NCBI GenBank assembly: GCA_001804705.1
Contig: MHAY01000058.1
Location: forward strand, 1 to 52,946
DNA from: Ignavibacteria bacterium RIFOXYC2_FULL_35_21
GTDB taxonomy: Bacteria > Bacteroidota > Ignavibacteria > Kapaibacteriales > UBA2268
DNA length: 52,946 nt
Reading direction: 5' to 3'
Part shown: positions 980 to 40,977 of the stretch, piece after piece
How the letters are laid out: each line of letters opens with the position of its first letter
How positions within the stretch are numbered: the first letter of the stretch is position 1
Notes under the pieces: model-generated
Told to the model about the DNA's origin: nothing
Database searches by the model: none
Seen by the model: the letters and a program-made list of their open reading frames with translations, nothing else
Position numbers and translations under genes: made by a program

Positions 980-1939
980 ATGAAGAAAATTGCTGTTTTC
1001 ACAAGCGGGGGCGATGCTCCCGGAATGAATGCTCTGATACGTGCCGTAGTGAGAAGTTCCATAGCCAAAGGAATTGAAGTGTTTGGCATTGTGGGTGGCT
1101 TTTCAGGAATGATTGAAGGTAATATTATTAAGTTGGGTAGGAAAGAAACAGCAAACATCATTTCACTTGGTGGGACAATACTTAAGACAAGCCGCTCAAA
1201 GGAATTTATGCAGAAAGGCGGTAGAGCGGCAGCAGCTGAAAAACTCAAAAATAACGGAATTGAAGGAATTATTGCCTGCGGGGGGGATGGAACGTTTCAT
1301 GGTGCTCACGATATTTGGGAAGAGCACAAAATACCTATTGTCGGCACTCCGGGAACCATTGACAACGATTTATACGGCACTGACTATACTATCGGATTTG
1401 ATACTGCAATTAATACCGCCGCCGAGGCAATAGATAAAATAAGGGATACTGCCGATTCTCATGGCAGGGTTTTTATCGTCGAAGTTATGGGACGTCATGC
1501 AGGTTTTATTGCTATGGATGTAGGTATTTCTGCAGGTGCCGAATTCATTGCTGTTCCTGAGACTGTTACCAACCTTGACCAGCTTTACCAAAGAATTTTA
1601 ACTCAGGGGAAACAGCAAAGGACTATCGTCATTGTGGGCGAAGGTGATGAAGTCGGTGGAGCCACTACATTCGCACAAATTTTAAAAGACCAGTATGAAA
1701 TAGATGCTAAAGTTACTATACTTGGCCATATTCAGAGAGGTGGTAGTCCTACGGTTCGCGACAGAGTACTTGCAAGCCATCTCGGTGTTGCTTCTGTTGA
1801 AGCACTGCTCGCAGGAAAAACCGATGTGATGATTGGAGAAATCAATTCCAAAATTGCATATACTCCTCTCAAAGATACATGGTCAAAGAAAAAGCCGATA
1901 CATGAATATCAAATTCAGCTTGCTGATATACTTACATAA
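980..1939 (+). CDS. pfkA: ATP-dependent 6-phosphofructokinase
   Basis: Phosphorylates fructose 6-phosphate to fructose 1,6-bisphosphate, the committed step of glycolysis, in the cytoplasm. The 319 residues match the usual length of short bacterial PfkA. Visible motifs: N-terminal nucleotide loop TSGGDAPGMN (8-17), GGDGT (101-105), catalytic loop TPGTIDND (123-130, catalytic Asp128) and GRHAG (171-175), plus GHIQRGGSPT near 250. Gly in GGDGT and the PGTIDND context indicate ATP rather than pyrophosphate as phosphoryl donor, because PPi enzymes carry Asp and Lys there (family knowledge). GGGGA lies 5-9 nt before the ATG. The NAD kinase gene follows after 46 bp on the same strand, so co-transcription is likely. 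Confidence 0.96.
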   Translation: MKKIAVFTSGGDAPGMNALIRAVVRSSIAKGIEVFGIVGGFSGMIEGNIIKLGRKETANIISLGGTILKTSRSKEFMQKGGRAAAAEKLKNNGIEGIIACGGDGTFHGAHDIWEEHKIPIVGTPGTIDNDLYGTDYTIGFDTAINTAAEAIDKIRDTADSHGRVFIVEVMGRHAGFIAMDVGISAGAEFIAVPETVTNLDQLYQRILTQGKQQRTIVIVGEGDEVGGATTFAQILKDQYEIDAKVTILGHIQRGGSPTVRDRVLASHLGVASVEALLAGKTDVMIGEINSKIAYTPLKDTWSKKKPIHEYQIQLADILT

Positions 1940-1985
1940 AGAAGAATATGAAAAATAAAGTTATATTTAATTACCAGTCTTATAT

Positions 1986-2885
1986 ATGAAAAATATCGGA
2001 ATTTTTGAAAATAACGGGAAACCGGAAGCTATAAAATGGATTGACTATTCGCTCGGCATTCTTAGGAGCTATGGTTCCGAATGTGCCGTCCGGCCTGAGC
2101 TTGTTAATCTTTTAGATAAATTCAACAGAAGTTATGTTAAGTCTATTCCGCATGAAGAATTTGAGAAATTCGCCGATGTCGTGATTTCTTATGGCGGCGA
2201 TGGCACTATGCTTTCGGCGGCGAGAATCATGCTCAATTCGGTCATACCTATAATGGGAATCAATGTCGGAAAGCTCGGTTTTCTTGCCGAATTTTCAGTC
2301 AACCAGCTCGATAAATCGCTTAATGACCTGATGAAAGGCAACTACCGGGTGGTTGACCGCACAGTTATTGAATCGGATTTTGGCGAGGAAAAGATATTTG
2401 CACTGAATGATTTTGTAATCGAGAAAAAAGATTCTTCTCGTATGATAACTCTTGACGGATATGTCAACACACATTATATAGGCTCGCTAAGGGCAGACGG
2501 GCTCATAATTACTACTCCTACCGGCTCGACGGCTTATTCGCTTTCATGCGGGGGGCCTATTATCACTCCGGCAACTGAAGTTATTTGCATTACACCGATT
2601 TCGCCTCATTCATTGACTTTGCGCCCGCTGGTTATTCCGGATTCAAGCGAGGTTGCATTAGTTGTACATTCTCCTACAGGAGACGCATCGCTGGTTGCCG
2701 ACGGACAGATTAGAAAAATTGTCAAGAATGGCGACACGGTTAGAATCAGAAAATCGGATGCAAAGGTGAAACTTATAAAACCTCTCGAAAGCTCGTATTT
2801 CGACCTGATTCGTGCAAAACTTTTATGGGCTGTGAATGTTGTTGATAGTGAAAAGAATCCAGTCGAGGGAAAAATATTTGAATAA
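1986..2885 (+). CDS. nadK: NAD kinase
   Basis: Makes NADP+ from NAD+ and ATP in the cytoplasm. The 299-residue sequence has the diagnostic GGDGTML motif (70-76), NVGKLGFLAEF (93-103), and the Gly-rich NAD-binding segment with TTPTGSTAYS followed by CGGP. The C-terminal half has ITPISPHSL and RPLVIPDSS, typical of the NadK beta-sandwich domain. Length is standard. It follows pfkA after 46 bp with no terminator in between, so the two are probably one transcription unit. Downstream is a palindromic C-rich hairpin (2908-2933) and a copy of an FCB-type dispersed repeat before lgt. Confidence 0.96.
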   Translation: MKNIGIFENNGKPEAIKWIDYSLGILRSYGSECAVRPELVNLLDKFNRSYVKSIPHEEFEKFADVVISYGGDGTMLSAARIMLNSVIPIMGINVGKLGFLAEFSVNQLDKSLNDLMKGNYRVVDRTVIESDFGEEKIFALNDFVIEKKDSSRMITLDGYVNTHYIGSLRADGLIITTPTGSTAYSLSCGGPIITPATEVICITPISPHSLTLRPLVIPDSSEVALVVHSPTGDASLVADGQIRKIVKNGDTVRIRKSDAKVKLIKPLESSYFDLIRAKLLWAVNVVDSEKNPVEGKIFE

Positions 2886-2907
2886 AATAATCACCTATTA
2901 ACGGTAT

Positions 2908-2933
2908 TCCCCTCCTTTATTAAAGAGGGGAAA
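2908..2933. repeat. Palindromic CCCCTC hairpin
   Basis: TTCCCCTC and GAGGGGAA flank a short AT-rich palindromic centre just after the nadK stop codon. Related palindromes sit at 22273-22300, 28791-28814 and 52926-52946, always next to gene ends. They look like a dispersed repeat that may act as a transcription terminator in either direction. Confidence 0.6.
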
Positions 2934-2987
2934 TTTTGATAGAAGCGGAAAATCGGTGTGGTTGATAAAATATATTTACTAATTAAA

Positions 2988-3063
2988 AGTGATGTCAGCC
3001 TGAGCTTTGTCGAAGGCTTGCTGATACGAGGCTTTCACACTTCGACTAAGCTCAGTGTGACAT
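2988..3063. repeat. FCB-type dispersed inverted repeat (TCGA-AGCTC family)
   Basis: Two inverted half-copies surround the core CTTCGACTAAGCTCAGTGTG and its partner AGCCTGAGCTTTGTCGAAGG. Similar words recur at 36155-36235, 40993-41026, 42237-42336 and 52898-52923. It is an intergenic repeat of a type widespread in Bacteroidota-related genomes (established knowledge). No coding content. Confidence 0.6.
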
Positions 3064-3132
3064 TTTTTTCTTAAATTCAATATAAATTTAATTTTTCATT
3101 TTATTTCAAGAAGAAATTTAAGGTTTTTAATA

Positions 3133-3927
3133 ATGGACTTACTGGCAGCAATCAACTGGAATGCAGACCCTGAAATATTTCACATTGGCTCTATTTCTAT
3201 CAGATGGTACGGTCTTCTTTTTTCGATAGCATTCATCGCCGGTTACCAGATTATGTCCTGGGTGTTTAAAAGCGAAGGAAAAACACAAAAAGACCTCGAG
3301 GCTTTAACCATTACAATGATTATCTCGACTGTCGTCGGAGCAAGGCTGGGACATTGCTTATTCTATGACCCTGTCTATTACCTGTCTCACCCAATTGAAA
3401 TACTGATGGTCTGGAAAGGCGGACTTGCAAGCCACGGAGCCGCAATCGGCATTATGTTCGGATTATGGCTTTTTTCGAGAAGGCGAAAGAAAATAACCTG
3501 GCTCTGGGTTCTCGACAGGATTGTCATTGTGGGTGCTCTTGCGGGTGTATTCATCCGCACAGGTAATTTCATGAACTCGGAAATAATAGGAAGTCCTTCC
3601 AATTTACCTTGGTCAGTCGTGTTTCAGCACGTTGATGCAATCCCTCGTCATCCTGCACAGCTTTATGAAGCATTATGCTATCTTGCCATTTTTCTATTCT
3701 TGTTTTTCAGATATAAAAAATATAAATCGGCACTTCCCGATGGACAGCTTTTCGGCTTCTTTCTTACCACAGTTTTCACAGCGAGATTTTTACTCGAGTT
3801 CATCAAGAAAGAACAGGAAAGTTTCGAAAAGTCTCTCCCCCTCGACATGGGACAATTCCTCAGCATTCCATTCATCATTCTCGGAATTTATTTTTTATAT
3901 AGGGCATGGAAATTGAAGGAGAAATGA
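3133..3927 (+). CDS. lgt: Prolipoprotein diacylglyceryl transferase
   Basis: Transfers diacylglycerol from phosphatidylglycerol to the lipobox Cys of prolipoproteins in the inner membrane, the first step of lipoprotein maturation. The 264-residue polytopic protein shows the Lgt features ISIRWYGLLF near residue 22, GARLGHCLFYDP near 72, WKGGLASHGAAIG near 93 and the signature region RTGNFMNSEIIG near 136, with HPAQLYEAL near 174. At least six hydrophobic segments are visible. Length is typical. It serves the lipoproteins encoded in this genome, such as the one at 15031. It is followed after 40 bp by the AT-rich defence segment, so lgt marks the left edge of probably acquired DNA. Confidence 0.96.
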   Translation: MDLLAAINWNADPEIFHIGSISIRWYGLLFSIAFIAGYQIMSWVFKSEGKTQKDLEALTITMIISTVVGARLGHCLFYDPVYYLSHPIEILMVWKGGLASHGAAIGIMFGLWLFSRRRKKITWLWVLDRIVIVGALAGVFIRTGNFMNSEIIGSPSNLPWSVVFQHVDAIPRHPAQLYEALCYLAIFLFLFFRYKKYKSALPDGQLFGFFLTTVFTARFLLEFIKKEQESFEKSLPLDMGQFLSIPFIILGIYFLYRAWKLKEK

Positions 3928-3967
3928 ATTTATTAGAATGGTTAAATAATAATTATTTAGAATTAGT

Positions 3968-5122
3968 ATGGATAGAAAAGTAAACATAAAAACAAATCCC
4001 GCTGTTCTTAAATGGGCAAGAGAATCCTTAAACATAAGTAAGTCTCATGCAGTTGAGAGTTTGGATATTTCCACTAAACAATTGGAACAGATAGAATCTG
4101 GTGAATTACCTCCCACGATTGATGAATTAAAGAGTATGTCAAAAGCTTATAAGCGAACAATAGCAACTTTACTATTGAATGCTCCTCCTATTGAAAAACC
4201 TTTACCAAGGGATTATAGAACTATTGATTCTTCAAGAATAGGTTTATTTGATGAAAAAACTTTTATTGCAGTACGAAAAGCACGTGCTTTAACACAATCA
4301 CTATTAGAGTTATATAATGAATTAAATATAAAATCACCAGGATTTAATTGGAATGCTTCAATGAATGATAATCCCGCACAATTGGGTGTTCATTTCAGAG
4401 AACTCTTAAAAATAAATGAGATTCCTGCATTTGATGATAAAAATCTTTTTTTAGAAGCATGTATAGAAAAATTAGAAGAAGTTGGAATTGCAATTTTTCA
4501 ATTAAGCCTTACACAAGACGGAATAAGAGGTTTTTCTCTGATTGATGAGATTATTCCAGTTATAATATTAAAACGAAATGAGCAACCATCTGCAAAAGTA
4601 TTTACGTTATTTCATGAGTTGGGCCATATTTTGCTGAATGAAGGTGGCCTTTGTAATATTGCACTAAGCCAAAATGATCCAAAGATAGAGCAATGGTGTA
4701 ATACTTTCTCGGCAGAATTGTTAGTACCATCATCCTTATTAATGGAACAAGATTTATGTATTGAGTATAATCGGAAAAATCAAAAGGAATGGAAGCATAA
4801 AGATCTAGTTGAACTATCAAATAGGTTTAATGTTGGTCCATTAGTAATTCTCCGCAGACTTCTCACACTAGGTAAAACCACATCAGACTATTATAAAGAA
4901 AAACATGAAATATGGAATAAACCTCAATTTGGAAGAAGTCAACACCCAGAAGGTAGAAACATCGCAAAAGAAACTATTAAGGAAAAAGGTAGAAAATATT
5001 TATCACTTGTTTTCAGAGCTTATGATTTAAATAAAATTGATTTAAAAGATACTGCTGATTTTTTAGGTATTAAACTTTCATATATTACAAAAACTCGTCA
5101 ATTATTTAATTCATGGATGTAA
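3968..5122 (+). CDS. XRE-type HTH / ImmA-IrrE metallopeptidase, antitoxin-like
   Basis: The 384-residue protein has two parts. Residues ~8-75 form an XRE-like helix-turn-helix (AVLKWARESLNISKSH, then LDISTKQLEQIESGELPP). Residues ~150-290 form an ImmA/IrrE metallopeptidase domain with HELGH at 216-220 and a downstream FSAELLVP segment. Proteins of this architecture are site-specific proteases that remove a repressor, or antitoxins paired with PIN-like toxins (family knowledge). Its last 10 nt overlap the DUF4411 gene, the usual arrangement of COG2856/DUF4411 toxin-antitoxin pairs, so an antitoxin or regulatory role is the best inference. The gene is much more AT-rich than lgt, suggesting transfer. 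Confidence 0.86.
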   Translation: MDRKVNIKTNPAVLKWARESLNISKSHAVESLDISTKQLEQIESGELPPTIDELKSMSKAYKRTIATLLLNAPPIEKPLPRDYRTIDSSRIGLFDEKTFIAVRKARALTQSLLELYNELNIKSPGFNWNASMNDNPAQLGVHFRELLKINEIPAFDDKNLFLEACIEKLEEVGIAIFQLSLTQDGIRGFSLIDEIIPVIILKRNEQPSAKVFTLFHELGHILLNEGGLCNIALSQNDPKIEQWCNTFSAELLVPSSLLMEQDLCIEYNRKNQKEWKHKDLVELSNRFNVGPLVILRRLLTLGKTTSDYYKEKHEIWNKPQFGRSQHPEGRNIAKETIKEKGRKYLSLVFRAYDLNKIDLKDTADFLGIKLSYITKTRQLFNSWM

Positions 5123-16501: not shown

Positions 16502-17032
16502 GTGAAAAAATTTATCATCATAGTATTTATCACCTCTTTGTGCTTCACACAGAGTCTATTCTCTCAACAGGATACTATAAAATCAAATGTTGAAATTATT
16601 AATACAGACTCCATAGCTCGAAATGCATGGTATATAGAAATAATGGGAAATACGTGGAGTTATAGTTTTAATTATGATCGAGCTTTCTTAATATTCCCTA
16701 CAATTTTTAGTGATTATACAAGTATATTTGGTAGAATCGGTTTAGGAATAAATCTATATCCAGGTCATGTTCCACTACCTGTATTGTTATTAATAAATTT
16801 TGGTAAAATTCATAGAGTAGAGTTTGGTTTGGGTTTTTATTATGATTATTTGCCAAATGGATGGAGTGAAGGTCTAAATTATCCACGTAATAAAATAAAG
16901 TGGATATTAAATATTGGATATAGATATCAAAAACTTGGTGGTGGTTTTGTTTGTCGAGCCGGCTTTACTCCAATTTTTTATTCTGGTGGATATTATCATT
17001 TTGGTGGAGTTAGCTTTGGGTATGCTTGGTAG
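16502..17032 (+). CDS. Secreted small beta-barrel-like protein, array copy 1
   Basis: A 176-residue protein starting at GTG with a signal peptide (MKKFIIIVFITSLCFTQSLFS, cleavage near 21). The mature part alternates polar and hydrophobic/aromatic residues as in 8-stranded outer-membrane barrels: WYIEIMGNTWSYSFNYD, then NIGYRYQKLGGGF and GVSFGYAW with a terminal aromatic. It is the most divergent of four tandem paralogues (others at 17192, 17822, 18435). Its 3' end overlaps, in the +1 frame, a small Cys-rich ORF that recurs after copies 2 and 3. Function unknown; a putative immunity or surface-structural role is inference. Confidence 0.75.
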   Translation: MKKFIIIVFITSLCFTQSLFSQQDTIKSNVEIINTDSIARNAWYIEIMGNTWSYSFNYDRAFLIFPTIFSDYTSIFGRIGLGINLYPGHVPLPVLLLINFGKIHRVEFGLGFYYDYLPNGWSEGLNYPRNKIKWILNIGYRYQKLGGGFVCRAGFTPIFYSGGYYHFGGVSFGYAW

Positions 17033-17180
17033 AAAATGTTTTACTTGTCATTGGAAATGTATTTATGATAATGGTGATCTGATTGGAAAAGAATTAATAA
17101 CTGATCCTTATGGGAAATTGCCATGTTGTTCAGGAACTGGAACTCCACAACAAAGAGATAAAATTAAATGTCCCGTTTAA
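17022..17180 (+). CDS. Small Cys-rich tail ORF, copy 1
   Basis: A 52-residue ORF whose ATG overlaps the end of barrel copy 1 by 11 nt and which stops 11 nt before the ATG of barrel copy 2. It has a Cys cluster CFTCHWKC at residues 5-12, the core DLIGKELITDPYGKLPCC, then SGTGTP and a terminal KCPV. The last 36 residues recur at 17700-17810 and 18312-18422, with mostly third-position changes, so the frame has been under protein-level constraint. I do not recognise a family. It may be the C-terminal tail of a larger secreted or toxin-like protein, or a true small protein. Confidence 0.5.
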   Translation: MLGRKCFTCHWKCIYDNGDLIGKELITDPYGKLPCCSGTGTPQQRDKIKCPV

Positions 17181-17191
17181 TGTTTTTTGTT

Positions 17192-17701
17192 ATGAAAAGC
17201 TATAAAATATATTTATATATTGCCATAATTCTTGTTTCTTTTTCAGAATTAAAATCTGAATATGTTATGCCTCAGGATAGCCTTGGCAAACACCAATGGT
17301 ATATTGAGATAGGGGGCGTAGCCGTTGGTCTCTCATTTAATTATGAATATACTTTAGCTGAAGACTTATTTTTAATTAATAAAATAAATCTTAGAGCTGG
17401 ATTAGGTACAACATTATTTATGGTAAATTATTTTGATATACCAATTATGGTAAACTTTTTAGTAGGAAAAAATTATTGTTTTGAACTTGGTATAGGTTTA
17501 CTACTAGATTATGTGTACAAACCGGTACCTAATAATGATATGCCATATTCAAGTGAAGCTATAAAATTTATAGGAAATATTGGGTATAGATATATTGGTA
17601 ACGGCGGGTCAATTTTCAGAGTAGGCATTACTCCTTTTTATTTCGTTAATTATAGACTAATATTTCCAACCATTGGTATTAGCTTCGGTCATTATTTTTG
17701 A
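17192..17701 (+). CDS. Secreted small beta-barrel-like protein, array copy 2
   Basis: A 169-residue paralogue. I start at the ATG at 17192, equivalent to the start of copy 3 (MKSYKIYLY versus MKKYKIYLC), not at the in-frame ATG 24 nt upstream. A signal peptide is followed by PQDSLGKHQWYIEIGG, a segment shared by copies 2-4, alternating strands, NIGYRYIGNGGSIFRVGITP, and the C-terminal GISFGHYF ending in Phe, as is common for outer-membrane barrels. The gene ends in TTT TGA, and its +1 frame continues straight into tail copy 2. Part of an AT-rich tandem array; function unknown. Confidence 0.75.
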   Translation: MKSYKIYLYIAIILVSFSELKSEYVMPQDSLGKHQWYIEIGGVAVGLSFNYEYTLAEDLFLINKINLRAGLGTTLFMVNYFDIPIMVNFLVGKNYCFELGIGLLLDYVYKPVPNNDMPYSSEAIKFIGNIGYRYIGNGGSIFRVGITPFYFVNYRLIFPTIGISFGHYF

Positions 17702-17810
17702 TTGTGATTTAATTGGAAAGGATTTAATTACTGATCCTTATGGTAAATTACCATGTTGTTTTGGTACTGGCACTCCAAAACAAAGAGATGAAACAAATTG
17801 TCCAGTTTAA
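17673..17810 (+). CDS. Small Cys-rich tail ORF, copy 2
   Basis: A 45-residue open frame from a TTG that lies inside the 3' end of barrel copy 2, stopping 11 nt before the ATG of barrel copy 3. The homologous part begins at DCDLIGKDLITDPYGKLPCC and ends NCPV. Compared with tail 3, codon changes in the core are largely synonymous (ACT/ACG, TTA/TTG, CCA/CCT, GGC/GGT). Unlike tail 1 there is no ATG, so translation would need the TTG, a +1 slip at TTT TGA, or does not occur. Family unrecognised. Confidence 0.4.
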   Translation: MVLASVIIFDCDLIGKDLITDPYGKLPCCFGTGTPKQRDETNCPV

Positions 17811-17821
17811 TATGATGCGTT

Positions 17822-18313
17822 ATGAAGAAATATAAAATATATTTATGTTTTACACTTTTTTTGATTTTTTTTTCAGAAATAAAATTATGTTCTGCTGTAC
17901 CTCAGGACAGTTTAGGTAATCATTTGTGGTATATAGAATTTGCTGGTGCTAATTTTGGAATATCTTTTAATTATGAATATATATTGTTAAAGGATACATC
18001 ATTAAAAATTAGTGCTAGAACTGGTATAGGTGGAAATTTTTTTTTCTTCCTTCGTTATGGTTCCCCTTTAATGATTAACTTTATTTTTGGTAAGGAATAT
18101 TGCTTAGATTTAGGTGTTGGTATTTTGTTTGATTATTTCCCTAAGCAGGTGGAGTATGATTATTCAACTCAAGCTATAAAGTTTATTGGAAATATTGGTT
18201 ATAGGTATATCGGTGATGGTGGATATTTATTCAAAATAGGATTTACTCCAATTTATTTTGCTGATAGAGGTATTATTCCACTTTTTGGTATTAGCTTCGG
18301 TCATTATTTTTGA
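17822..18313 (+). CDS. Secreted small beta-barrel-like protein, array copy 3
   Basis: A 163-residue paralogue with signal peptide (MKKYKIYLCFTLFLIFFS, cleavage probably near SAVPQ), the shared QDSLGNHLWYIEFAGANFG segment, Gly/aromatic alternating strands, FIGNIGYRYIGDGGYLF and the terminal GISFGHYF. Copies 3 and 4 are the closest pair. The ATG is 11 nt after the stop of tail 2. The gene ends in TTT TGA with tail 3 open in the +1 frame. Localisation to the outer membrane is inferred from signal peptide, strand pattern and terminal Phe. Function unknown. Confidence 0.75.
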   Translation: MKKYKIYLCFTLFLIFFSEIKLCSAVPQDSLGNHLWYIEFAGANFGISFNYEYILLKDTSLKISARTGIGGNFFFFLRYGSPLMINFIFGKEYCLDLGVGILFDYFPKQVEYDYSTQAIKFIGNIGYRYIGDGGYLFKIGFTPIYFADRGIIPLFGISFGHYF

Positions 18314-18422
18314 TTGTGATTTAATTGAAAAAGAATTAATTACGGATCCTTATGGTAAATTGCCTTGTTGTCCTGGTTCAGGTTCTCCTGAAGATAAAAG
18401 TAAAATTAAATGTCCGTTATAA
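18285..18422 (+). CDS. Small Cys-rich tail ORF, copy 3
   Basis: A 45-residue open frame from a TTG inside barrel copy 3, stopping 12 nt before the ATG of barrel copy 4. The core is DLIEKELITDPYGKLPCC, then PGSGSP and a terminal KCPL. It keeps exactly the same length and reading-frame offset as tail 2. No copy follows barrel 4. Same caveats as tail 2: no ATG, family unrecognised, and it may be a translated small protein, a frameshift extension, or a decayed domain. Confidence 0.4.
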   Translation: MVLASVIIFDCDLIEKELITDPYGKLPCCPGSGSPEDKSKIKCPL

Positions 18423-18434
18423 TTGTATAATTAT

Positions 18435-18932
18435 ATGAGAAACTTTAATATATATATTTTTTTTGTATTCATTATTATTTCATTTTCATGTTCAAAATCA
18501 TGTTTTTCAAAACCTCAAGATAGTTTAGGCAATCATTTGTGGTATATTGAAAATGTTGGTGTTCGTTATGGTGTCTCTCTTAATTATGAATATATATTCT
18601 TAAAAGATGCTTTTTTAATTAATAATATAAGTTTAAGGACATGTATTGGTGGAAACATTTTTTTTATATCCCATATCAGTTCTCCTCTAATTATTAATTT
18701 CATTTTAGGTAAAAAATATTGCTTGAATATTGGTATGGGCATTTTGTTTGATTATGCCCCAAAACAGGAGGGATATAATTATCCAACACAAGCTATAAAA
18801 TTTATTGGAAATATTGGTTACAGGTATGTTAGTGATAGTGGATTTGTTTTCAGGGTAGGTCTTACACCCTTTTATTCAGCTAATCACGGCATAATTCCTT
18901 TTTTTGGAATTAGCTTTGGCAATTATTTTTAA
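18435..18932 (+). CDS. Secreted small beta-barrel-like protein, array copy 4
   Basis: A 165-residue paralogue starting at the ATG at 18435; an in-frame TTG 12 nt upstream is less likely. Signal peptide MRNFNIYIFFVFIIISFSCS may be a lipoprotein-like or normal signal. Then come KPQDSLGNHLWYIENVG, strands with aromatic alternation, KFIGNIGYRYVSDSGFVF and terminal GISFGNYF. It ends in TTT TAA rather than TTT TGA and is not followed by a tail. It closes the array; about 150 bp of AT-rich non-coding sequence separates it from the next gene. Confidence 0.75.
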   Translation: MRNFNIYIFFVFIIISFSCSKSCFSKPQDSLGNHLWYIENVGVRYGVSLNYEYIFLKDAFLINNISLRTCIGGNIFFISHISSPLIINFILGKKYCLNIGMGILFDYAPKQEGYNYPTQAIKFIGNIGYRYVSDSGFVFRVGLTPFYSANHGIIPFFGISFGNYF

Positions 18933-19084
18933 TTTTATATATTTTAATAATTCCTCAAATTATAAATATTATAAAAAAATCTTCCATTTTAATTCTCAAT
19001 ATTTTGCGTTCCAAATAATATATACATAAATTTGCAGAGCAATTGGGTTGTGTTGTGTATTTCATCTTACTTGAACCGGATTAA

Positions 19085-36408: not shown

Positions 36409-36828
36409 ATGAAAACCGATTATCCATATCATGAAGCAATGCGTTATATAGATGATGCAAGGAAATTGCTTAAACTTGTAGATAAGGATGGCAAATTCTA
36501 TGTTGATGATGACTATATAAAAAAAGCTTGTAAAACTGCTTACAATGGTATGCTGAAAGCCTTGGATTTCCTTTTTGATATCAAGGGTGTTCCAAAAAAG
36601 AGAGGCAGGAAATCATATTTTTATTATGAGGATGTTCTGTCAGAATTAAATCCCGTATTATATAAAAATTTACATTCTGCTTATCTTGTACTTTATCTTG
36701 ACGGTTCTACCGGTAATTTAAACAGCATAAGAGCAATCAATGCTGGAATCGAATGTGCCGTTGAAATAATCAAAGCCCTGAAGCCCTATTCAAAAAACGT
36801 AAATAAAATCAAACGATGGGTGATTTAA
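36409..36828 (+). CDS. DUF5618 family protein, first of tandem pair
   Basis: A 139-residue, mainly helical protein. Conserved segments shared with the next gene: HEAMRYIDDARKLLKL, YVDDDYIKKACKTAYNGMLKAL, VPKKRGRKSYFYYEDVLSEL and IIKALKPYSKN. This matches the DUF5618 family; the helix pattern resembles HEPN-type four-helix bundles, but the RxxxxH active motif of HEPN RNases is not evident, so RNase activity should not be assumed. It sits in an accessory region rich in TA-like genes. About 70 bp separates it from its paralogue. Confidence 0.75.
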   Translation: MKTDYPYHEAMRYIDDARKLLKLVDKDGKFYVDDDYIKKACKTAYNGMLKALDFLFDIKGVPKKRGRKSYFYYEDVLSELNPVLYKNLHSAYLVLYLDGSTGNLNSIRAINAGIECAVEIIKALKPYSKNVNKIKRWVI

Positions 36829-36897
36829 AAATTTACAATAAAATTCATATTTAAACTTTTGTAAATTTGTGAAAATTGGTATAAGATTAACAATAAT

Positions 36898-37296
36898 ATG
36901 ATAACAGAAAATCCAAACAAAGATGCAATGCGTTATATTGACAACGCAAGAGCAGCTCTTAAGCTGGCAGGTAAAAAAGATAGAAATTACCTCGATGAAA
37001 AATATGTTCATACCGCCTGCGGTACTGCATATATTGGTGTATTAAAAGCATTAAATATGCTCTTCAATATTAAGAATGTGCCAAAGAAAAAAGGCAGGAA
37101 ATCAATCGAATATTATCAGGAACATCTTTCTAAAATTGATAAGAAACTTTTAACTTATCTGAACAATGCTTATCATAGTCTACACATTAATGGATATTAT
37201 GATGGTGTCACCGAAATTAAGATGATTGAAGCAGGTTTCGAGAATGCCATCTTAATTATCAACGCCCTGAAGCCCTATTCAAAAAACGGAATATAA
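36898..37296 (+). CDS. DUF5618 family protein, second of tandem pair
   Basis: A 132-residue paralogue of the gene at 36409. Equivalent blocks are DAMRYIDNARAALKLAG, YLDEKYVHTACGTAYIGVLKAL, VPKKKGRKSIEYYQEHLSKI and LIINALKPYSKNG. The GRKS block and the ALKPYSKN end are nearly identical, while the middle has diverged, which indicates an old tandem duplication with two conserved surfaces. Function unknown; no nucleotidyltransferase partner is adjacent. Confidence 0.75.
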   Translation: MITENPNKDAMRYIDNARAALKLAGKKDRNYLDEKYVHTACGTAYIGVLKALNMLFNIKNVPKKKGRKSIEYYQEHLSKIDKKLLTYLNNAYHSLHINGYYDGVTEIKMIEAGFENAILIINALKPYSKNGI

Positions 37297-38840: not shown

Positions 38841-38996
38841 TTAAATTGTTTCAATATATAATTCAACTGCCTCTTTAATATTGGTCATCGCTTCTTCGAA
38901 AGTATCTCCCTGTGTGTGACAGCCTTTCAGTTCAGGGCAATAAGCAAAATACCCATAATCATCTTTTTCAATTATAACTGTTAATTTTCCTCTCAT
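38841..38996 (-). CDS. Orphan HicB-like antitoxin (type II TA family)
   Basis: A 51-residue protein starting MRGKLTVIIEKDDYGYFAY, then CPELKGCHTQGDTFEEAM and NIKEAVELYIETI. This is the compact HicB/UPF0150 fold, in which DxxGYFAxCPELxGCxTxGDTxEEA is the family signature. It is too short to carry a C-terminal DNA-binding domain. No HicA-like gene lies within 300 bp on either side, so it appears to be an orphan, or its toxin has been lost. It is convergent with the small wHTH gene with 7 bp between them. Confidence 0.85.
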   Translation of the reverse strand: MRGKLTVIIEKDDYGYFAYCPELKGCHTQGDTFEEAMTNIKEAVELYIETI

Positions 38997-39096: not shown

Positions 39097-39154
39097 TTTT
39101 CATTATTTTTGCACATTGTATTTTTAATAATGGAAAAATGCTTAAAACAAGAGT
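39097..39154 (+). repeat. 58-bp direct repeat, left copy (5' end of hisF2-like gene)
   Basis: Identical over 58 bp to 40004-40061. It includes an upstream segment, the TAATGGAAAA pre-start region and the first ATG CTT AAA ACA AGA GT codons of the hisF2-like gene, then diverges (GACTCTAATT here). The ~850 bp between the copies carries the HigB/RelE-type TA pair. Confidence 0.9.
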
Positions 39155-39252
39155 GACTCTAATTGTAACGAGTTTAATACTAAGGATTAACAACTTCAGA
39201 CAGTGAATTCGCAATTATGGTTTGAAGTATTATTCGGTTATGAGCCAAAGAA

Positions 39253-39468
39253 TTACTGAATATATGTGAGATGAAAATCCTGCTTAACCAAGTTTTCAAG
39301 ACTTCTGACTTTTTTCAAAATTGTTGAACTGCTCTTATTATTCTTAATATCTTCCTTCAATCCGTTCAATTTCATTTCAATATCGAATTTGATTGATTCT
39401 TCAATGTATGCTTTTCTGAAAGATTCAGATTCATATAATTTTCTAAAATGTTCTTCTGCTATATTCAT
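39253..39468 (-). CDS. Putative antitoxin of the HigB/RelE-type pair
   Basis: A 71-residue, strongly charged, mostly helical protein (EEHFRKLYESESFRKAYIEE, then ILKKVRSLENLVKQDF). Its ATG overlaps the stop codon of the upstream toxin-like gene, the toxin-first order seen in HigBA modules. It shows no clear XRE HTH, so the antitoxin family is not identified. The role is inferred from gene order, size and overlap. Confidence 0.6.
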   Translation of the reverse strand: MNIAEEHFRKLYESESFRKAYIEESIKFDIEMKLNGLKEDIKNNKSSSTILKKVRSLENLVKQDFHLTYIQ

Positions 39469-39827
39469 TATTTATGTTCCTTAAAGTATTTACGTATTTC
39501 TTTTGCCTTATTTATTTCATTTCTTGGTGTCTTTGTTGACTTTTTAATAAACCCATTCGTAAATATAATTTCACGATTTATTTCATAAAAATATAAACTT
39601 CTTGAAGTTCTGTTTTCAAAATCAATCCTTAATTCAAAAATTCCATCTTCTAAATATTTAGTCAGTTTCTCGCTAAGACGATAATTATTGTTCTTCATTT
39701 CAATAAATTTGTGAATATAAACATATAATCTTGATTTTTCATTTTCTGACAGGGAATCAATAAAATCAATCATTGGAACTCGATTATAATATTTTGCAAA
39801 GTTATATGTATATGACGAGTCAGCCAT
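39468..39827 (-). CDS. RelE/HigB (Gp49-like) family toxin
   Basis: A 119-residue protein of the phage-derived Gp49-like/HigB group of RelE-fold mRNA interferases. The family pattern is visible: LTKYLEDGIFELRIDFENRT near 59-78, SRSLYFYEINREIIFTNGF with the central strands, then KKSTKTPRNEINKAKEIRKYF, the C-terminal basic helix. Ribosome-dependent mRNA cleavage is the family activity. It is the first gene of a two-gene unit that lies exactly between the two 58-bp direct repeats, suggesting insertion as a cassette. Confidence 0.8.
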   Translation of the reverse strand: MADSSYTYNFAKYYNRVPMIDFIDSLSENEKSRLYVYIHKFIEMKNNNYRLSEKLTKYLEDGIFELRIDFENRTSRSLYFYEINREIIFTNGFIKKSTKTPRNEINKAKEIRKYFKEHK

Positions 39828-40003
39828 TCTTATTTATTAATTGTATATGTCTAATACAATATAGATATAACAATATATATTCTTGGTTTATGCATATTCA
39901 AAGCTACAAAATATTATAATATCAACAAAATGTTGCAGGGGGTGTTTTGGATAATAGAAAAGACAAGCAGATTCATTAAGTGAATTTAAAAAATACATGT
40001 CGT

Positions 40004-40061
40004 TTTTCATTATTTTTGCACATTGTATTTTTAATAATGGAAAAATGCTTAAAACAAGAGT
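40004..40061 (+). repeat. 58-bp direct repeat, right copy (promoter and start of hisF2-like gene)
   Basis: Identical to 39097-39154. Here it is followed by the intact reading frame, so this copy holds the functional start of the hisF2-like gene. The repeat ends inside codon 6. Confidence 0.9.
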
Positions 40062-40803
40062 AATCCCATGCCTGCTTCTCAAGGAAGGAGGATTTGTCAA
40101 GACTGCCAGATTCTCCAAACCGCGTTATCTTGGTGACCCCAGAAACATTGTCAGACTCTTCAATGAAAAAGAGGTTGATGAAATTGTCATTCTCGATATT
40201 GATGCAACTCGAGATAAGCGAAAACCATACTTTGACCTGGTCAGAGATATTGTCAGCGAAGCATTCATGCCGATTGGCTATGGCGGCGGCATCACAACGA
40301 TTGAGGATATTAAATTGCTATTTAAAATCGGCGTTGAAAAAGTTGTAATCAATACACAAGCAGTGAACAAACCTGAGTTCATCAGCGAAGCCTCCGAGCG
40401 GTTCGGAAGCCAGAGCATTGTCGCTTCTATTGACGTGAAAAAGAATTTATTCGGGAAGTATAAAGTTTGTATTGAGTCGGGTAGAAAAAAATGCAGTGTA
40501 TCTCCGGTTGAACATGCAAAAGCAATGGAAGATAGTGGTGCAGGCGAGATAATAATAAACTCGATTGACAGGGACGGAACAATGGAAGGCTATGACATTG
40601 AGTTAATAAAATCAGTTGCTTCAAATGTCTCGATTCCTGTGATTGCACTTGGTGGAGCGAGTAAGTTAGAGCATTTTCGTGATGCAGTGAATTCTGGAGC
40701 CTCTGCCGTATCTGCCGGGAGTATGTTTGTTTACCAGGGAGTTCATAAGGCTGTGTTGATTAATTATCCCACTCAGGATGAGTTGAAGGGGTATTTGGTA
40801 TAA
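40045..40803 (+). CDS. HisF homologue for sugar amidination (HisF2/WbuZ-like)
   Basis: A 252-residue TIM barrel related to imidazole glycerol phosphate synthase cyclase. It starts MLKTRVIPCLLLKEGG, where histidine-pathway HisF has Asp11 (CLDV); here residue 11 is Leu, so the catalytic acid needed for histidine synthesis is missing. GYGGGITT, ASIDVKKN and NSIDRDGTMEGYD remain. In Pseudomonas and E. coli O-antigen loci such HisF2/WbuZ proteins act with HisH2 and WbpG/WbuX to convert acetamido to acetamidino sugars (established). The amidotransferase gene follows 242 bp later across repeats. No hisH is present in the window. Confidence 0.88.
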   Translation: MLKTRVIPCLLLKEGGFVKTARFSKPRYLGDPRNIVRLFNEKEVDEIVILDIDATRDKRKPYFDLVRDIVSEAFMPIGYGGGITTIEDIKLLFKIGVEKVVINTQAVNKPEFISEASERFGSQSIVASIDVKKNLFGKYKVCIESGRKKCSVSPVEHAKAMEDSGAGEIIINSIDRDGTMEGYDIELIKSVASNVSIPVIALGGASKLEHFRDAVNSGASAVSAGSMFVYQGVHKAVLINYPTQDELKGYLV

Positions 40804-40810
40804 CAAAGAT

Positions 40811-40977
40811 ATATAATCCCTACGGGATAAGTGTGGCAACGGTTAATCATATTCTACTAATATTTATTCACTACGTGAAAAGAAAGGATGTACAAATTTT
40901 ACTCCGTAGGAGTTATATATTAGTAGAAAATGTTGATACCGAGTTTATAATTTACTCCGTAGGAGTTATATATTAGG
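40811..40977. repeat. Short hairpin repeats with TATATATTA flank (four copies, two orientations)
   Basis: Copies at 40816-40828 (minus orientation), 40867-40879 (minus, TTCAC/GTGAA stem), 40901-40913 and 40954-40966 (ACTCC/GGAGT stems). Those in plus orientation are followed by TATATATTAG. They occupy most of the 242-bp gap between hisF2 and the amidotransferase gene. An FCB-type repeat half-copy follows at 40993-41026. Confidence 0.8.

Follow-up and report, generated by a model that had tools for sequence, protein, structure and literature searches.

A toxin-antitoxin (TA) pair of the HigB/Gp49 type lies at the start of a hisF2-like gene in an Ignavibacteria genome, and comparison with related genomes indicates that it came there by an insertion that duplicated a 58-bp target and left hisF2 intact. 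We consider it probable, though well short of certain, that neither a transposase nor Ku took part in the capture of this fragment, which likely came about through replication or repair, and that addiction favours TA modules among the inserts that survive.

The repeated start of hisF2

The window (the whole stretch of DNA analysed, 52,946 nucleotides of contig MHAY01000058.1 from Ignavibacteria bacterium RIFOXYC2_FULL_35_21) contains two direct copies of a 58-bp sequence that are identical at 58 of 58 positions, as re-checked by string identity, and that lie 907 bp apart from start to start (Table 1). This pair is the longest exact direct repeat of the window, and base composition alone would be expected to give about 2e-24 such pairs by chance. 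Each copy is made up of 41 bp of DNA upstream of hisF2 and 17 nt of the gene itself, that is, five codons and two more nucleotides counted from the ATG at 40045; the reading frame that opens in the left copy runs to a dead end after 22 codons, whereas the right copy continues into the intact 252-aa gene. The initial annotation had described a perfect repeat, composed of the upstream region and first five codons of hisF2, on both sides of a segment of about 850 bp with a HigB/RelE-type pair, the right copy leading into the intact gene and the left being a truncated duplicate, and this description is borne out at the coordinates given, the segment measuring 849 bp and carrying a PF05973 toxin and a 71-aa ORF. 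An exact scan of the genome contigs with the 58-bp repeat gave no match, and no tRNA or tmRNA was found when the window was scanned for them.

Table 1. Features at the hisF2 locus, with positions in the window
Feature	Position	Strand	Basis or remark
51-aa ORF, native left flank	38841..38996	-	same place in G001 (alignment); HicB-like by eye only
Left copy of 58-bp target duplication	39097..39154	+	native hisF2 upstream context and truncated hisF2 start; context common to congeners
Inserted segment, 849 bp	39155..40003	.	G001 joins both flanks directly; ends compared for inverted repeats
Putative antitoxin, 71 aa, adjoining 3' side of toxin gene	39253..39468	-	ORF; role inferred from position
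Gp49/HigB-type toxin, 119 aa	39468..39827	-	PF05973, E 6.5e-19
5' end of PIN-toxin gene and upstream remnant	39868..39931	-	ATG at 39895, MHKPRIYI...; 64-bp limits set by eye
Right copy of 58-bp duplication	40004..40061	+	runs into intact hisF2
hisF2-like gene, 252 aa, intact	40045..40803	+	PF00977, E 7e-68

There are two ORFs of at least 60 aa wholly inside the insert, namely the toxin and its putative antitoxin. The toxin belongs to the Gp49/HigB-like family by its Pfam match, and a profile built from 13 toxin sequences matches the solved HigB structure 6af3 at 1.2e-9. Its 71-aa partner has no match in Pfam or NCBIfam, and this includes the recognisable helix-turn-helix families; from its position, and from the short ORFs that adjoin many other Gp49 genes, we infer that it is the putative antitoxin. 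No transposase or integrase ORF is seen in the ORF listing of the insert, there are no terminal inverted repeats (the best match between its 60-base ends is a poor one of 17 columns), and no conserved end of the insert was found. The homology of the TA pair with G013 C159 stops at the end of the antitoxin, a comparison in which only one boundary is informative, as there are just 29 bases of contig left after the toxin ORF.

A stretch of about 64 bp upstream of the toxin, which the initial annotation does not mention, matches the 5' ends and upstream DNA of PIN-toxin genes in the same genome (six matches, the best at 86% over 56 bp), and the length of this remnant is about that of the target duplications at other loci. 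It is possibly a scar from an earlier insertion of the module before a PIN gene. At L150-L151 (G000 C102), moreover, PIN-toxin modules are arranged in tandem, at least three of them at intervals of about 0.75–0.78 kb.

The 51-aa ORF of the left flank has no match in NCBIfam. On the other side, hisF2 is followed by an ORF with an NAD_synthase fold and a methyltransferase, and farther on by an oxidoreductase, a hexapeptide transferase, an aminotransferase and glycosyltransferases, a gene content like that of a surface-sugar cluster. Behind hisF2, at 40807-40881, lies a dispersed repeat with a CCTACGGGAT-type motif, of which there are many partial copies in G000, G001, G002, G003, G012 and G018. 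Elsewhere the window contains a tandem paralogous family of ORFs of about 165–177 aa (16502-18934) and two tandem DUF5618 genes (36409-37296).

At a threshold of E <= 1e-60, hisF2 is present in six of the 54 family genomes, the window's own included (the protein queries started at 40042, one codon before the ATG), and its upstream DNA was compared in G001, G002, G003 and G015, with G066 left out. In each of the three congeners (G001, G002 and G003) the 58-bp stretch occurs once before hisF2, and the TA pair is absent. The join is clearest in G001, where the same left-flank ORFs meet hisF2 without a gap by way of the single copy, which differs by eye at three positions from the two identical copies of the window. 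The genes farther upstream are different in G002 and G003, while the conserved block from CACCTATTTTC or close by is the same; in the more distant G015 there is no TA pair at hisF2 and the upstream region has diverged. The native context, CTCACCTATTTTC, is found at the left copy of the window and also in G001 and G003, and with one base different in G002.

Because it is the left copy that has kept the native context, the right copy and the intact gene now follow inserted DNA; and since the repeat begins inside the conserved upstream block, its edge is not merely the end of homology between relatives. The single copy without an insert in the congeners, together with the join in G001, thus shows an insertion with a 58-bp target duplication, and parsimony over the four relatives settles the direction as gain of the insert. 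The initial annotation had taken a cassette insertion that regenerated the gene start as the simplest reading, and the empty one-copy site in three congeners upholds it; a relative that lacks the TA pair and yet carries both 58-bp copies, which would have spoken for the opposite, was not seen.

Repeat-flanked inserts in related genomes

Direct repeats straddle 6 of 28 Gp49 toxins, compared with 29 of the 1276 ORFs that served as controls (Fisher p 6e-5). The six toxins are what is left of nine loci passed by the automatic rule after three were dropped by hand: L043 and L044, which are in distant, order-level genomes and have low-complexity-like repeats, and L048, which has a dispersed repeat. 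All three were judged by hand, the copy-number filter of the controls not being applicable to them. With the window excluded, 5 of 27 Gp49 loci are straddled (p 5e-4). The test took 28 of 29 rows, as L045 is on the same contig as L037, and at several of the loci (L029, L037, L043 and L050) a contig edge is too near for a repeat to show. The straddling repeats outside the window are of 81 bp (84% identity) in G012 C123, 56 bp (91%) in G013 C186, 43 bp (93%) in G018 C3, 55 bp (93%) at a gene 3' end in G021 C19, and 48–60 bp in G001 C115, where the repeat is the 3' end of tyrS. The arrangement for which the initial annotation proposed a search, with further TA pairs lying between copies of an end of the adjoining gene, is found at several other loci.

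The 3' end of tyrS is a hotspot, with arrays of different single-gene cassettes and copies of the gene end between them (L162, G001 C115, 7561-9434; L198, G003 C15, 3224-4398). Three copies in G001 set the TA pair apart from a 264-aa ORF with no Pfam match; three copies in G003 set a 152-aa ORF (no match) apart from a 112-aa BamE-like ORF, and here the TA pair sits outside the last repeat copy. The Gp49 insert of G012 C123 (L202, 2144-5342) lies directly before an EcoRV-type restriction-modification (RM) pair (PF09233, E 4.2e-117), behind which there is another direct repeat, of 119 bp and 89%.

Outside the family there is no enrichment: when the first 28 out of 80 named Gp49 loci were scored, 3 reached at least 20, compared with 10 of the 152 control positions, which had been shifted. 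L063, one of these three, is the same locus as that of G013. L057, from the Nitrospinae, has a near-perfect 28-base repeat at a distance of 674 bp.

A survey of 2.25 Mb (1.05 Mb of G000, 0.80 Mb of G002 and 0.40 Mb of G018) gave 13 locus-specific repeat-flanked inserts, of which five are TA-type and of five kinds (the window, L156, L223, L234 at 9711, and L247), two are ambiguous (L283 and L295) and six are not TA (L165, L177, L287, L291, L268 and L302, the last with two repeat pairs counted once); the survey is partly non-blind, since G000 contigs C13, C18, C58, C65, C77, C79, C102 and others, and the contigs that provide most of the G018 sample, had matched earlier searches. Repeats that occur more than three times in the sample were dropped together with pairs within one ORF, as were pairs in two paralogous ORFs (for example L161, L167, L170, L216, L227, L239, L277, L293 and window 17556), the tandem gene families of the window (17074 and 36765), the array of PIN modules at L150 and, as a matter of judgement, L156 15349 and L234 12532 for their resemblance to dispersed repeats. 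TA modules are the largest recognisable class of insert in this small and partly non-blind sample. With six of the 13 inserts not TA and two ambiguous, the insertion process acts on other cargo as well; the heads of G000 contigs C1-C23 (318 kb, chosen regardless of TA genes) have two inserts, and neither is TA. TA-like genes are themselves common, with at least four nucleotidyltransferase and at least two HEPN matches among 140 random ORFs, counted among the 25 families listed out of 175. Repeat lengths vary from about 35 to 90 bp across loci, and 13 repeats that were compared have no common word above shuffles, although recombinases that differed from site to site would escape this test.

Three of the inserts that are not TA deserve description. 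At L302 (G000 C40, about 1276-5048) the 3' end of tmRNA is repeated behind the intact tmRNA gene (970-1328) at spacings of about 1.85 kb, and the ORFs between the repeats match Glyoxalase, DUF3024 and HNH, with no integrase among the four ORFs scanned. The 3' end of a cyclophilin gene is duplicated around a YitT-family gene at L177 (G000 C17, 4507-6148), and a HigBA pair (PF05015 and HTH_3) lies just outside, starting right behind the second copy. At L268 (G002 C5, 11986-14161) the duplicated sequence is the 3' end of a hisH-like glutamine amidotransferase gene, and a 452-aa ORF with no Pfam match is between the copies.

The other TA-type inserts are of varied kinds, and antitoxin roles within them are inferred from position. 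A PIN gene (PF10130, 3.1e-22) and a 67-aa partner are flanked by 66-bp copies of an acyl-CoA dehydrogenase gene start; G000 and G001 have this insert in common, each with both copies. The corresponding site of G002 has other ORFs, one of them nucleotidyltransferase-like by eye, and before them a short stretch similar to the start of the dehydrogenase gene. Of 61 positions, 4 differ between the two copies around the PIN insert within G000 and 1 within G001, with 5–8 differences between the genomes, and because they are closer within than between genomes the repeat copies seem to recombine or exchange sequence. A HicA gene (PF07927, 1.6e-11) and its partner are between copies of 85 and 90 bp in G002, and the site has a single repeat copy in G001 and G003. 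A third module, again in G002, has the end of a peroxiredoxin-like gene repeated on its two sides and contains DUF2283, which we take to be a TA component (at this locus, L234, the only Pfam match is for the DUF2283 partner); it is half deleted in G000 and absent with one copy in G001, and the contig of G003 ends there. The repeat-flanked HEPN-MNT cluster of L247 (PF05168, 5.9e-22) is not a clean insertion, as the 3' part of the MNT gene includes one of the copies, and the MntA match of the cluster falls short of the NCBIfam cut-off.

Homologues of the PIN, HicA and DUF2283 modules are found at unrelated sites in congeners (G003 C87, G002 C40 and G001 C16). Their likeness covers the ORFs and extends no more than 50 bp beyond them, with unrelated flanks, and a likeness limited in this way fits fragments without fixed ends.

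How the insert may have been captured

The course of events that we favour, as a probable one, is that a TA-bearing fragment was captured at hisF2 without a transposase or Ku. Most likely, replication or repair synthesis would have left the chromosome at codon 5 of hisF2, copied the TA fragment and re-entered the chromosome about 58 bp upstream, so regenerating hisF2 on the right and leaving a truncated start on the left. A detour that re-enters tens of bases away would explain both the variable duplications and the absence of fixed ends. The survivors would be those events whose duplication spans a gene edge or which themselves fall between genes, a filter that fits gene starts (hisF2 and acyl-CoA dehydrogenase) as well as gene ends (tyrS and others). 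With direct repeats of such length the insert could delete itself cleanly, and TA inserts would be over-represented among the survivors because a cell losing the pair also loses the antitoxin; addiction is thus the probable reason why the pair at hisF2 has not been deleted. The inserts without TA genes, the general frequency of TA-like genes and the lack of enrichment outside the family count against this reading.

Another route would be Ku-dependent joining of the ends of a staggered break. Ku (PF02735) was not found in any of the 54 family genomes, a B. subtilis control being positive, and this route was dropped for that reason.

A different origin of the repeat would be homology with a donor, in which DNA of a relative with the TA pair before its own hisF2, or a circle with one repeat copy, entered the genome and was incorporated either by a homologous join in hisF2 with an illegitimate join at the other end, or by a single crossover of the circle. 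Some repeats do end near a natural gene edge (the acyl-CoA dehydrogenase ATG and the tyrS 3' end), and the tyrS arrays of different cassettes in G001 and G003 are such as repeated homologous exchange would give. We nevertheless regard this origin as unlikely, as the hisF2 repeat begins inside the block conserved in congeners, the copies of the window are identical throughout while that of G001 has its three differences by eye, and the first acquisition of the insert by the donor itself would be left unexplained. ComEC, which is present in 48 of the 54 family genomes, is also present in 10 of 14 controls and is therefore uninformative.

It could also be supposed that the repeats are the attachment sites of a trans-acting, site-specific recombinase that puts small cassettes into gene ends. 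Gene 3' ends with tandem arrays are typical of integrase targets, many of the repeats are at gene 3' ends, and those of tyrS and tmRNA have tandem arrays; however, an excess of 3' ends is also expected if survivors must keep both gene and promoter. The lack of a common word in the 13 repeats beyond that of shuffles, the lack of any recognised recombinase ORF in the listed inserts, and the occurrence of homologous TA modules at unrelated sites with unrelated flanks make such a recombinase quite improbable. The target-regenerating integrase raised as a possibility in the initial annotation fares no better, since no integrase is seen in the insert and the repeats have no common core motif; recombination, which it also named, or repair may still apply.

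A mobile element that has defined ends, makes an exceptionally long target-site duplication and depends on a transposase that is elsewhere or lost would account for the target duplication and the empty site, both of which are demonstrated, but it is very improbable: the insert of the window has no terminal inverted repeat, repeats of about 35–90 bp are too variable for the usual transposase stagger, which normally varies less than this, and homologous modules share no DNA past the ORFs and 50 bp. As the genome is metagenome-assembled and in 105 contigs, and a repeat of 58 bp is close to common assembly k-mer sizes, an artefact of assembly or a mixture of strains might be suspected. We give this hardly any weight, since the TA pair at the acyl-CoA dehydrogenase gene is present together with both repeat copies in two separate genomes, G000 and G001, and the DUF2283 case is common to G002 and G000.

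Beyond the hisF2 locus, the capture of fragments without a transposase suggests a broader picture that we offer tentatively and hold to be rather doubtful, in which TA modules in this bacterial family would be minimal mobile units without transposase or defined ends, captured as fragments that duplicate 35–90 bp, repair the target gene and are held in place as deletion between the repeats kills the cell that deletes; the PIN start in the insert of the window would then be the scar of a previous stop.

Relation to known systems

The movement of chromosomal TA modules is mostly explained by a carrier plasmid, phage or transposon, and the hisF2 locus, with its empty site in close relatives, is a case of a TA module that moved on its own. 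In its genes the insert is like HigBA, having a PF05973 toxin, the toxin gene first, overlapping genes and a profile match to solved HigB chains, but it is unlike HigBA in that the 71-aa partner has no recognisable helix-turn-helix family match. It resembles the integrase islands at tRNA, tmRNA and other gene 3' ends in that direct repeats restore a gene end and tandem arrays occur, and differs from them in having no integrase, much smaller cargo and no shared core, and in that the repeat at hisF2 is a 5' end.

RM gene insertion with long target duplication has reportedly been described by Nobusato et al. in 2000 and by Furuta et al. in 2010. A full-text search of the literature, with subscription journals mostly outside its scope, found no paper that treats the insertion of TA modules with a long duplication of the target as a class, and judging from passages of the sources concerned the nearest published cases are the RM papers and a module of Microcystis. 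In Microcystis aeruginosa PCC 7806, a ParE/ParD-like module beside MaOC1 is flanked by two identical 152-bp direct repeats (PMC7935541). Both there and at hisF2 a single TA module is between two identical direct repeats; the Microcystis repeats contain 16-bp inverted repeats and are placed behind the stop codon (PMC7935541), whereas the repeat at hisF2 is the neighbour gene's own 5' end.

Passages of the RM literature describe some RM systems as inserting with long and variable target duplications, of the order of 100 bp (PMC3874152), and long target duplication as frequently associated with RM genes (PMC1643837). The inserts described here are like those insertions, to the extent that these passages characterise them, in having a small addictive gene set, a long and variable direct duplication, one copy in a related genome and no transposase, and the argument that a TA pair punishes its own deletion is the same as that made for RM systems. 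They are unlike RM insertions in that the TA cargo is of several families and some inserts have other genes, and also in that they occur in an Ignavibacteria-related family and not in H. pylori, with repeats of about 35–90 bp. If the pattern holds, the RM precedent would be extended to TA modules of several families, and repeat-flanked inserts with a working toxin should be lost less often than those without. The insert at hisF2 is a real and clean example of TA-carried insertion with a long target duplication, and its cargo differs from the known RM pattern.
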